In this document: piece after piece, positions 17,072 through 50,251 of the stretch
Layout: each line of letters opens with the position of its first letter
Position numbering within the stretch: the stretch's first letter is position 1
Source of the DNA: Flavobacteriales bacterium
Lineage (GTDB): Bacteria > Bacteroidota > Bacteroidia > Flavobacteriales > BACL11
NCBI GenBank assembly: GCA_002705205.1
Contig: PAHP01000005.1
Coordinates: forward strand, 1-64,000
Reading direction: 5' to 3'
DNA length: 64,000 nucleotides
Notes under the pieces: model-generated
What the model saw: only the letters and a program-made list of their open reading frames with translations
Databases searched by the model: none
What the model was told of the DNA's origin: nothing
Made by a program: the position numbers and the translations under genes

Positions 17072-18010
17072 ATGAGAATCGGTATAGATATTATGGGAGG
17101 AGATTATGCTCCTAAGAAAACAATTCATGGAGCAATTCTTGCCTTAAAGGAAACCCCAAAAGATGTCAAAATAGTTCTGTTTGGGGAAAAGACTGAAATT
17201 CTTAACGAACTAAAAAAACATAATTGCAGCCCAAATAATTTTGAGATAATTGATTGTTCTCAGGTTATTACTATGGAAGAAAATCCAACAAAAGCATTTA
17301 GATCTAAAGCTGACTCATCAATTGCTAAAGGTTTTATAGCATTATCAGAAGGGAAAATTGATGGCTTTGCTTCAGCAGGAAATACAGGCGCTATGTTTGT
17401 TGGTGGATTCTACTCAGTAAAAGCTATTGCAGGCATTATACGGCCTGCAATTTCTACTTTAATGCCTAGAGAGGATGGAGGTGTAACAGTGTTGCTTGAT
17501 GTTGGAGCAAATGCAGACTGCAAACCTGATATTTTATATCAATTTGGTATTTTAGGGTCATTATTTTCGGAACATATTTGTAACGTCAAAAAACCAAAAG
17601 TTGGCTTATTAAACCTTGGGAAAGAGAAATCCAAAGGCAATATGCTTACTCAAGCAGCTTATTCTATGATGTTAAATAATCCAGACTATAACTTTGTCGG
17701 AAATATCGAAGGAACAGATATATTTGACTCCGACATAGATGTAATCGTTTGTGATGGATTTACAGGTAATATTGTTCTGAAGGAGGCTGAAGGTATTTTT
17801 AAACTAATGAGCAAAAGAGGGCTCTTAGATGAGTATTTTAAGAGATTTAATTACGAAAATTATGGGGGAACTCCTATTCTAGGACTAAATAAGACTGTTA
17901 TAATTGGGCATGGTATTTCTAATGAGATTGCAATAAAGAATATGATTATACTTACAAAGGAGATTGTAGAGACAGACTTAGCAAGTAAAATAAAAATGAA
18001 TATTACATGA
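17072..18010 (+). CDS. plsX: Phosphate acyltransferase
   Basis: MRIGIDIMGGDYAPKKTIHGAILAL; SAGNTGAMFVGG; DGFTGNIVLKEAEG. Confidence 0.95.
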   Translation: MRIGIDIMGGDYAPKKTIHGAILALKETPKDVKIVLFGEKTEILNELKKHNCSPNNFEIIDCSQVITMEENPTKAFRSKADSSIAKGFIALSEGKIDGFASAGNTGAMFVGGFYSVKAIAGIIRPAISTLMPREDGGVTVLLDVGANADCKPDILYQFGILGSLFSEHICNVKKPKVGLLNLGKEKSKGNMLTQAAYSMMLNNPDYNFVGNIEGTDIFDSDIDVIVCDGFTGNIVLKEAEGIFKLMSKRGLLDEYFKRFNYENYGGTPILGLNKTVIIGHGISNEIAIKNMIILTKEIVETDLASKIKMNIT

Positions 18011-19008
18011 AGAAAAATACAGCAGCAATAACTGGTGTTCAAGGATACGTCCCAGATTATATTCTAACTAATCAAGAGTTAGAAACAATGGTTGACACAA
18101 ATGATGAGTGGATTACCAGTAGAACTGGTATTAAGGAGAGACGTATTTTAAAAGCTGAAGGCAAAGCAACTTCTGACATGGCAGCTGAGGCTGTTAGAGG
18201 TCTGTTAGAAAAAACAAACACAAATGCTGATGAAATTGATTTAATTATTTGCGCTACAAGTACTCCTGACATGATGGTAGCTTCAACAGCTTGTATTGTG
18301 GGCGATAAAGTGGGGGCAAAGAATGCATTTGGATATGATTTAATGGCGGCATGCTCAGGTTTTTTATACGCTCTATCAACTGGATCAAAATTTATTGAGA
18401 CTGGTACTTATAAAAAAATTATAATAATAGGCGTTGATATGATGTCTTCAATAATTGACTATACCGATAGATCTACTTGTATTATATTTGGAGATGGAGC
18501 TGGAGCTGTAATGTTAGAGCCCGACACAGAAGGTTATGGAGTGCAAGATGCAATATTAAAAAGTGATGGGTCTGGAAGAGAATATTTACACATAAAAGCA
18601 GGGGGATCGTTAAGTCCTTCAACTCATAAAACAGTAGATGCTAGAGAGCATTATGTTTTTCAAGACGGTCAGCCAGTATTTAAAGCTGCTGTAAAGAATA
18701 TGGCTGATGTTTCTGCTGAAATAATGGAAAGAAACTGTTTGACATCTGATGATGTTTCTTGGTTAGTCCCTCATCAAGCAAATAAAAGAATTATTAATGC
18801 TACAGCAAAAAGAATGGGGCTTGGCGAAGAAAGAGTTATGTTAAATATCCAAAAATACGGCAACACAACAGCTGGGACAATCCCATTATGCCTATGGGAT
18901 TACGAGAATCAACTTAATAAAGGAGACAATATTATACTTGCTGCATTTGGAGGAGGATTTACTTGGGGGTCAATTTATTTAAAATGGGCTTACAACTCAA
19001 AGAAATAA
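18007..19008 (+). CDS. fabH: 3-oxoacyl-ACP synthase III
   Basis: TSRTGIKERRI; DLMAACSGFLYAL (active-site Cys); VPHQANKRIINATAKRMGL; GNTTAGTIPLCL. Confidence 0.95.
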   Translation: MKKNTAAITGVQGYVPDYILTNQELETMVDTNDEWITSRTGIKERRILKAEGKATSDMAAEAVRGLLEKTNTNADEIDLIICATSTPDMMVASTACIVGDKVGAKNAFGYDLMAACSGFLYALSTGSKFIETGTYKKIIIIGVDMMSSIIDYTDRSTCIIFGDGAGAVMLEPDTEGYGVQDAILKSDGSGREYLHIKAGGSLSPSTHKTVDAREHYVFQDGQPVFKAAVKNMADVSAEIMERNCLTSDDVSWLVPHQANKRIINATAKRMGLGEERVMLNIQKYGNTTAGTIPLCLWDYENQLNKGDNIILAAFGGGFTWGSIYLKWAYNSKK

Positions 19009-19040
19009 CTATTTTTGCATCATAAATAAAACGTAACTAC

Positions 19041-19556
19041 ATGAATCTAAAAGACATTCAAGAATTAATAAAGTTTGTTGCTAAATCAGGTGCAACAGAA
19101 GTAGATCTAGAAATTGATAATGTAAAAATATCAATCAAATCACCACCTAAAAAAAGAAGAGGTGAAGTTGATGAGGTAACTACAATTATTCAACAACAGG
19201 CTCCTCCTCAGGTAGTAGCCACACCTACTCAGCCAATACCCCCCCCATTAGCGCCAGAAACAGAAAATTCTGTCGTAAATACTAATTCAGATAACTCGTC
19301 AACTGATGAAGAAAACTATATTACAATTAAAGCATCAATGATTGGGACATTTTATCGTTCATCATCTCCTGAAAAACCTCCATTTATCAATGTTGGAGAT
19401 ACAATAAAGGAAGGGGACACGCTTTGCATTATTGAAGCAATGAAATTATTCAATGAAATTGAGTCAGAATTTTCAGGAAAAATAATAAAAGTATTGGTAG
19501 ATGATTCAACTCCTATTGAGTTTGACCAACCATTATTCTTAATAGATCCTTCATAA
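19041..19556 (+). CDS. accB: Acetyl-CoA carboxylase biotin carboxyl carrier protein
   Basis: Pro-rich linker and biotinylation motif IIEAMKLFNEIES. Confidence 0.95.
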   Translation: MNLKDIQELIKFVAKSGATEVDLEIDNVKISIKSPPKKRRGEVDEVTTIIQQQAPPQVVATPTQPIPPPLAPETENSVVNTNSDNSSTDEENYITIKASMIGTFYRSSSPEKPPFINVGDTIKEGDTLCIIEAMKLFNEIESEFSGKIIKVLVDDSTPIEFDQPLFLIDPS

Positions 19557-41503: not shown

Positions 41504-41713
41504 TTACTCAGCTACTTCTTCAGTAGCTTCAGCTTCTTCAGTAGCTTCAGCTTCTTCAGCAGCAGCAGTGTCTTCAACTACAGCTTCTTCAACTACAGCT
41601 TCTTCAACTACAGCTTCTTCAGTTGCAGCTTCTTCAGTTGCAGTCTCTCCACCTCCACAAGCAGTGAAAGCAAACATTGCCCCAGCAACAAATAAATAAA
41701 TTAATTTCTTCAT
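41504..41713 (-). CDS. Small lipoprotein with acidic Ala/Glu/Val tandem-repeat tail
   Basis: MKKLIYLFVAGAMFAFTACGGGETATEEAATEEAVVEEAVVEEAVVEDTAAAEEAEATEEAEATEEVAE; TATATTTG (-7-like) on the minus strand at 41747-41754. Confidence 0.75.
   Translation of the reverse strand: MKKLIYLFVAGAMFAFTACGGGETATEEAATEEAVVEEAVVEEAVVEDTAAAEEAEATEEAEATEEVAE
41523..41645 (-). repeat. In-frame tandem repeats (18-bp units 41523-41558; 15-bp units ~41572-41645) in the acidic lipoprotein
   Basis: gtagcttcagcttcttca twice in tandem; cttcaactacagctt repeated, drifting to cttcagttgcagctt. Confidence 0.85.
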
Positions 41714-47883: not shown

Positions 47884-48624
47884 TTAGTTAGAAATAGCAC
47901 GGAAAAAACTAGAGCGCATCTGCTGATAAATTGCATTGTATTTTCCTAAGCGCTCAGGATGAAATTGGACCGCAATCATAAATGGATGAACAGAACTATT
48001 CATAACTACAGCCTCAGGCAAGCCATCATATGAACGTGCAATAATCCGTAAATCCTTAGAAATATCTTTAAGTCCTTGATGATGCCAAGAATTAACCATA
48101 AAATCATCTTTCCCATCTGGAAAAATCAAAGAAGATGTATCACAAAGTACAATCTCATGCATTACCTCTCCTTTATTACGATGAATAACTCCAGTTCCTA
48201 GCTGTGTTGGGATATCTCCATAAAGCGTTCCTCCCATTGCAACATTCATCATTTGCATCCCTCGGCAAACCCCTATAAGTGGTAATTTATTATTAAATGC
48301 AAAATCAAATAACTTTCTCTCTAATGTATCTCTTCTAAAATTAATTTTACCGCACAGCTTAATATTACTTGTATCATTATATTCAAGTGGATTTATATCT
48401 TCTCCCCCAGTTAAGATAATCCCATCTGCTAAGTCTAATATGCTATCGGTATTCTTAATAGTATAGGCGTCTAAAATAATTACATCTTCAGCTTCTATCC
48501 ATTTTATATAATTTAAAGATGCTTTAGATAAAATTATTGTTGTTTTTTTTGGCTCTTCTTGGCATGAAGATAGAATAGTCAAGAAAAGTGATACAGCTAA
48601 AAATACATAAATTATTTTTTGCAT
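47884..48624 (-). CDS. Gamma-glutamyl-gamma-aminobutyrate hydrolase family (peptidase C26), predicted lipoprotein
   Basis: Lipobox ILSSC; DGIILTGGEDINPLEY; LPLIGVCRGMQMMNVAMGGTLYGDIP; VQFHPER. Confidence 0.85.
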   Translation of the reverse strand: MQKIIYVFLAVSLFLTILSSCQEEPKKTTIILSKASLNYIKWIEAEDVIILDAYTIKNTDSILDLADGIILTGGEDINPLEYNDTSNIKLCGKINFRRDTLERKLFDFAFNNKLPLIGVCRGMQMMNVAMGGTLYGDIPTQLGTGVIHRNKGEVMHEIVLCDTSSLIFPDGKDDFMVNSWHHQGLKDISKDLRIIARSYDGLPEAVVMNSSVHPFMIAVQFHPERLGKYNAIYQQMRSSFFRAISN

Positions 48625-48745
48625 AATACTATTTTTAAAAACAAACTTAAGATTTATTTACTTAAAAGAAGATATCTTTTTAAGATTTATCCTATTCAAC
48701 ATGTAAATATAGACCGCACATCTTATATCTGCTAATTATTATGTT

Positions 48746-48800
48746 TTTTATTGCAAAAAAGTGCATTTTATTGCAAAAAAGTGCATTTTATTGCAAAAAA
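48746..48800. repeat. 20-bp direct repeat TTTTATTGCAAAAAAGTGCA, 2.75 copies
   Basis: Exact copies at 48746-48765 and 48766-48785; third partial copy 48786-48800. Confidence 0.95.
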
Positions 48801-48881
48801 ATATCATATTTATCCCTTTTTGTATTCTTGTTAAATCACGAAATACACTTATATGCATTTTTACTAAATAATAAAAATCCA

Positions 48882-48906
48882 TAAAATGCACTTTTTTGCA
48901 ATAAAA
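48882..48906. repeat. 25-bp exact inverted copy of the 48746 repeat, directly 3' of kmo
   Basis: TAAAATGCACTTTTTTGCAATAAAA is the exact reverse complement of TTTTATTGCAAAAAAGTGCATTTTA. Confidence 0.95.
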
Positions 48907-48916
48907 TGTAATAAAA

Positions 48917-50251
48917 TTACACTAAAAGAAGCATTTTCTGCATTATTTCATCGCTTTCCCATATTTTTTTAATATTAGGAATGCTCATGATACTTTGCAT
49001 AAGCTCTTCTTGCTTCATTCCAATTTCCCAAGCCTCGGAATAAGGTGTGTTTGTAAAACTAACCATAGAATAAAGAGGAACCCATTTATCTGGATATAGA
49101 TTAGCAAATTTTTGCTCTATTTTTTTCTGTAATAAAAACTCAGGATCAGCAGTTTTATCCCTCATTACTACATAATTTTGAATTGACAAATCCTGAAGCC
49201 CGTCCCCATTAGGCTTTCTATTTTGAGAATATTCAACAAAGCATGATTTTAAATCTTCTCCATGCTTATCTAATAACTCGTCTAATATTCTACAATCTTC
49301 AAGACTTGCATTCATCCCTTGACCATAAAAAGGAACCGTTGCATGAGCAGCATCACCTATCAATACAGCCGTGTCATTTATATGCCAAGGATATGTTTTT
49401 ACAATACCTAGCCCAGAAGTAGGGTTGTTAATCCACTGCTTATACAAATCAGGAACTAAGTCATAAAAATCAGGAAATATATTCCGAAAATAACTCTCCA
49501 CTTCATTCTTAGAATTTAATCTTTCAAAAGATTTTTCGCCATTTTTTGGGGCAAATAATGTGCACGTAAAACTACCATCTAAATTTGCCAGTGCAATTAA
49601 CATAAAATCTCCTCTTGGCCAAATATGAAGCGCATTCTTATCTAATAAAAAAGAATTCTTCGGTCCAGCTGCAATATGTAGCTCTTTATAATCATGATCA
49701 ATTTTTAAATAATTAAATTCATGATCATGATGCTCAACCATTTGCTTCCTAACGGCAGAAAATGTTCCATCTCCACCAATCACTAAATCAGATTGAATTC
49801 TTTGTCTTTTATTTGTGATTGTATTTTCAAAAACAACACTTGACTCTTCTAGATCAGCTTCTATACACTTCTCATTAAAATTAAGAGCCGCCCCATTCTC
49901 CTCAGCTAACCTCATCATTAATACATTTAATTGAGCTCTAGAAATAGAATAAATAGCCTGTCCTTTATTGCCATATGGCTGTTCTGTTAAGTTTCCTTTT
50001 TGATCATGCATTACTCGCTTATACATAGGAATAGCAATTTTCATCACCTCAGCATCTACCCCTACTTTTTTCAATGCCGTCAATCCTCTCTTAGAAAGTG
50101 CTAAATTGATAGATTTTCCTGCAGTAATGATTTCTGATCTTAAATCTTTTCTTCTTTCAAAAATAGTAACCTTAAATCCTCTTTTAGTAAGATATAAAGC
50201 ACACAAAGAGCCTGCCAATCCAGCCCCAACAATTGTAACGTCTTTTCTCAT
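48917..50251 (-). CDS. kmo: Kynurenine 3-monooxygenase
   Basis: VTIVGAGLAGSLCALYLTKRGFKVTIFERR; GKSINLALSKRGLTAL; VLIGDAAHATVPFYGQGMNASLEDC. Confidence 0.93.
   Translation of the reverse strand: MRKDVTIVGAGLAGSLCALYLTKRGFKVTIFERRKDLRSEIITAGKSINLALSKRGLTALKKVGVDAEVMKIAIPMYKRVMHDQKGNLTEQPYGNKGQAIYSISRAQLNVLMMRLAEENGAALNFNEKCIEADLEESSVVFENTITNKRQRIQSDLVIGGDGTFSAVRKQMVEHHDHEFNYLKIDHDYKELHIAAGPKNSFLLDKNALHIWPRGDFMLIALANLDGSFTCTLFAPKNGEKSFERLNSKNEVESYFRNIFPDFYDLVPDLYKQWINNPTSGLGIVKTYPWHINDTAVLIGDAAHATVPFYGQGMNASLEDCRILDELLDKHGEDLKSCFVEYSQNRKPNGDGLQDLSIQNYVVMRDKTADPEFLLQKKIEQKFANLYPDKWVPLYSMVSFTNTPYSEAWEIGMKQEELMQSIMSIPNIKKIWESDEIMQKMLLLV

Follow-up and report, generated by a model that had tools for sequence, protein, structure and literature searches.

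The gap after kmo and its repeat array

The window analysed here is a stretch of 64 kb from the draft genome (1.21 Mb, 73% complete) of a marine bacterium. Its minus strand carries kmo (48917..50251), coding for kynurenine 3-monooxygenase and named as such by an earlier note on this DNA and by its sequence family, and, further on, a C26-type (gamma-glutamyl-hydrolase-like) lipoprotein gene (47884..48624). Between the two lies a repeat array in two blocks, for which kmo is the anchor gene in the family; past the array comes the C26 gene, as it also does in many relatives. The distal block (48746..48800, plus strand) is made of 2.75 tandem copies of TTTTATTGCAAAAAAGTGCA, that is, two exact 20-bp units and a 15-bp partial one. 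Repeat finding and TRF (100% match, score 110) agree on this count, which is the one first reported. A spacer (48801..48880) follows, where the related motif TATGCATTTTTA is present as had been claimed. The proximal block (48881..48916, minus strand) comprises an exact inverted copy of the repeat and a decayed remainder reaching the kmo stop. The inverted copy, previously given as 25 bp, is indeed perfect and slightly longer: it extends over 28 bp (48764-48791 against 48881-48908), starts 8 bp past the kmo stop and leaves 89 nt between its arms, while a looser arm of 39 nt, at 85%, reaches 48919. An invertible promoter held between these arms, a candidate in view of the anatomy, was set aside; most relatives do not have the inverted layout.

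The key feature of the array, missing from the earlier note, is its 10-bp helical phase. TGCA is spaced every 10 bp, so that the 20-bp unit spans two turns of the helix; an A-tract falls in one of them and a T-tract in the other, and the two kinds of turn alternate along the distal block. The pattern TGCAN6TGCA occurs five times in the array, where 1.7 occurrences are expected over the whole 64 kb, and the W/S autocorrelation of the region 48740-48916 at lag 10 has a z of 4.3.

Statements about the source genome are based on pattern searches, together with about 184 kb that were read directly. A search of the kind proposed in the earlier note found the exact 15-mer TTGCAAAAAAGTGCA at three places only in the 1.21-Mb draft, all of them in the window array, and a pattern of four copies of GCA, one every 10 bp, had its sole match in the draft at the kmo array locus. 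A copy with one mismatch near dnaA falls inside a coding sequence and was put down to chance. The suggestion that we are dealing with a small dispersed repeat, or with a mobile element, was given up: there are no further copies in the draft, phage and plasmid records do not match the array, and genomes have one strong array each, sometimes two or three. Two observations may be recorded separately. A viral contig (L338, 3000-3200) carries one exact 20-mer of the unit in an unrelated genetic context, and an AT-rich gap there has TGCA several times at intervals of 11-13 bp, which might be a different sort of iteron; and the window itself holds, at 41508-41637, a 15-bp tandem repeat, AGCTACAGCTTCTTC, in about seven copies, which on the minus strand seemingly codes for a short Glu/Ala-rich repeat protein.

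Arrays in the family: changing letters, constant period

At least 11 of the source family's 15 genera have arrays of period 10 in the kmo gap or in the gap next to it. Their place is shifted in G005, where the array is two genes further on, and in G007 and G027, where it stands past a small ORF. The earlier note would have counted absence of the motif from related genomes as a refutation, but a second genus (G017) has the exact 15-mer in the corresponding position, immediately downstream of kmo, and the distal block is 85% identical to that of G017 across 82 bp. The gap after kmo can be aligned in six genomes from at least four genera, with a mean identity of 59%. The 10-bp step is the same throughout, with a repeat unit that differs in most genomes of the family: the arrays after kmo are built from TTTTTGTGTC in G035, TTTTACGCAC in G002, TTTTAGCACA and GCATAAAAAA in G003, ATTTTTACAC in G010, TTTTTATGCG in G018 and AAAATGCACG in G016. 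When TRF was run over stretches of these family genomes, multi-copy arrays of this kind were seen only after kmo; that of G012, at 291.4-291.8 kb, is the sole one within 400 kb. The array is well supported, and so are its 10-bp period, its specificity for this locus and its conservation across genera.

Two genomes are particularly informative, as each has two arrays built from unlike units. In G035 the array after kmo repeats TTTTTGTGTC and the one between trxB and tgt repeats TTTTTTACAC; the two of G062, 53 kb apart, repeat TTTTATACAC and TTTTTATGTC. A binder of such variable letters is therefore unlikely to be the common factor, and it is the helical phase, rather than the sequence, that appears to be conserved. 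Of the three readings offered in the earlier note, a clustered binding site comes nearest, provided that the conserved property is taken to be the helical spacing of A/T-tracts and not a fixed word. Two further peculiarities were met in relatives. Two contigs of G003 (L138, 300-931, and L313, 1-470) start within the array, one with kmo and the other with the C26 gene; and in G026 (L314, G026:C2:32077-33465) the kmo reading frame continues through the array for another 18 codons, which makes the repeat part of the predicted protein end.

Helical phase and predicted curvature

Over 20 kmo gaps of the family, lag autocorrelation gives a mean z of 3.4 at lag 10, 3.1 at lag 20 and 1.9 at lag 30, against a mean of about zero for 215 gaps sampled elsewhere in the same genomes. 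Only three sampled gaps have a z above 4 at lag 10, and all three are kmo gaps (G035, G018 and G016) that happened to lie inside the sampled stretches. The kmo gaps of other families have no period-10 signal: among the 20 kmo gaps of a wider genome collection that were long enough, the array signal is confined to L048, taken as a contig of G035, and, more weakly, to L047, whose kmo is 80% identical. The unrelated kmo gap of L102 reaches a z of 2.8 without A/T tracts of the array kind.

Within the arrays, T-tract ends are 10, 20, 30-31 and 40-41 bp apart, and A/T runs of about 4-6 bp follow each other at a spacing of 10-11 bp over several turns, which is what characterizes phased A-tracts. A wedge model places the beginnings of the most bent arcs of 100 and 150 bp of the whole window at 48868 and 48827, respectively. 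Of 13 arrays, 10 have a predicted bend that none of their 60 shuffles reaches; among the others, shuffles are equally bent in 4/60 cases for the window array and 5/60 for G017 (a moderate excess), and in 40/60 for G009 (no excess). The curvature computed in this way should be taken as support and not as proof. With letters that vary from species to species and a spacing that does not, the array points to a curved DNA site wrapped by a putative protein, not to a coding or an RNA element.

A proposed curved DNA site and its rivals

We would give an even chance to the following account: the DNA of the locus is intrinsically curved, a putative architectural protein wraps or bridges it, and slippage renews the units while selection keeps their phase. 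Runs of A or T about 10.2 bp apart would share one face of the helix, in at least two blocks flanking a spacer; an architectural (nucleoid-associated) protein would recognize this shape and wrap or bridge the array; and the wrapped DNA may help to fold, or to insulate, the piece of chromosome that separates the kyn operon from the next gene. Replication slippage would multiply the unit and homogenise its copies locally, a turnover that would let the letters vary between lineages while selection holds the helical phase. Against this account, some arrays stand at quite different genes (trxB-tgt, the gene of a 467-aa secreted protein), so that a fixed local role remains putative. Phased A-tracts have been tied to intrinsic bends and, via comparative genomics, to DNA-bridging proteins (PMC3940949). 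The kmo array resembles them in its short A/T runs at the helical period; it differs in that theirs is a diffuse signal spread genome-wide, whereas the kmo array is dense, tandem, restricted to one or a few gaps, and syntenic across genera with lineage-specific units (PMC3940949). Among open-access papers, searches on phased A-tracts, curvature and kmo brought up no account of such an array for the source family.

Curved DNA upstream of bacterial promoters is a known feature, and the array might act in this way, activating the promoter of the next gene (here C26) via bending or an extra contact with RNA polymerase. As in that familiar situation, the phased A-tracts of the window are close upstream of a possible promoter, a weak site in the interval between the array and the C26 gene (48700..48735, minus strand, TTAGCA-18-TATATT); it aligns with similar sequence in two relatives, and most other arrays precede the start of one gene or more. 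The number of such sites, however, is no better than chance, promoter-like sites being as frequent in shuffles. Moreover, the array keeps to kmo while the downstream gene varies by genus (C26, GIY-YIG-like, MORN-like and others), and in G014 it lies between convergent genes, which is not what is known of curved promoters. We consider this role rather improbable.

A bolder conception, which we put forward tentatively and also hold to be rather improbable, is that of a chromosomal cis site coded by shape: there would be one main array per genome, mobile among the gaps of a neighbourhood, with letters that can be rewritten, and a putative protein reading the phase alone, for a role in folding or in segregation. 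Displaced arrays are found between fabH and accB (G013, G055, G104), at DUF502 (G015, G006, G031, G036) and at the end of leuS (G042), and in the window these flanking genes are at 18007-19041, 3958 and 61765, respectively. This clustering in the chromosomal neighbourhood of kmo is suggestive and was noted only post hoc, and there are arrays outside the neighbourhood: at trxB-tgt, at the 467-aa gene of genus g2, at uvrD-ribF in G014 and in family f9. Among the fabH-accB cases, G055 (L307, 48095-48338) belongs to a different family and its array is likewise phased, and G013 (L308, 31197-31267), without a detected kmo, has a unit, TTTTTTTGCTTAAAAATGCG, much like that of the window.

It may also be asked whether the array has any function at all. 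A slippage-prone AT-rich repeat in a weakly constrained gap would be homogenised locally and would change across lineages, as the units do, and the duplication of whole blocks of about 400 bp in G003, which seems to have broken the assembly there, is in keeping with such behaviour. Yet slippage alone should yield many periods at many loci, while the period never departs from one helical turn, most genera share one locus, the gaps sampled elsewhere are without an array, and the array can be aligned across genera. A neutral satellite is an unlikely explanation.

About as unlikely, or marginally more so, is a centromere-like site, at which a segregation protein would bind iterons of one turn arranged in blocks around a spacer, after the manner of parC, the type II plasmid centromere. 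ParR wraps the tandem repeats of parC, which can be split into two blocks; those of R1, pB171 and pSK41, continuous or in two blocks, have iterons of about one turn (PMC5016525). The kmo array, whose iterons also stand in tandem, measure about 10-11 bp and may form two blocks, has a similar layout. Wrapping by a protein, established for parC (PMC5016525), is for the kmo array what we infer. That most genomes have one main array, with alternative gaps in the same neighbourhood, fits this idea, as does the presence, in five genomes from four genera, of one parS-like palindrome about 44 kb (42-45 kb) from the kmo locus. Unlike parC, however, the array is chromosomal, and its unit varies within one genome (G035, G062), where one protein would be expected to bind one unit sequence; a chromosomal ParB and a parS-like site are located elsewhere; no par operon was seen by eye among the genes beside the window array (tyrS, a peptidase, gpmI, C26, kmo, kynU and others); the parS-like site of G010 is 343 kb from the kmo locus; and the clustering was spotted post hoc. 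The palindrome itself, TGTTTCAYRTGRAACA, occurs once in most genomes that were searched for it. It was located in L177 near 411031 of G009:C1, within a coding sequence and about 63 kb from the origin inferred from skew, with equivalents such as G000:C13:19255.

An RNA structure, that is, a long stem at the 3' end of the kyn transcript acting in attenuation, termination or stability, is very improbable. The stem suggested in the earlier note is strong in the source genome (minimum free energy of -47.9 kcal/mol, z = -6.4), and G030 also has a z of -3.9; in 13 other array gaps that were folded z goes from -2.1 to +1.2, and many relatives whose arrays are clear have values around zero or higher. 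No terminator-like site was found at the array, and Rfam gave nothing above the gathering score, two chance miRNA matches lying far below it. Since most relatives do not share the stem, the fold is in all likelihood not the conserved function, and it may be a side effect in the source species. Finally, a replication origin, with AT-rich repeats opened by DnaA, would fit the AT-rich iterons and their location in a conserved part of the chromosome, but it is hardly conceivable and was excluded by the strand-corrected GC3 skew, which flips in G009 at about 348 kb, 107 kb away from the array, and by the GC3 skew of G010, without a flip across 410-590 kb around an array at 521 kb. In addition, none of six genomes has DnaA boxes clustered near the array.

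We may thus come back to the intrinsically curved site, wrapped or bridged by a putative architectural protein, with a biological role and a selection on phase that we can only propose. In bacteria, phased A-tracts are mostly known as a faint signal spread over the genome, the purpose of which is unclear. A dense syntenic array, with letters that change and a phase that remains constant, provides a concrete place for testing selection on DNA shape alone, and the kmo array of this family also offers a place to ask which protein reads that shape.
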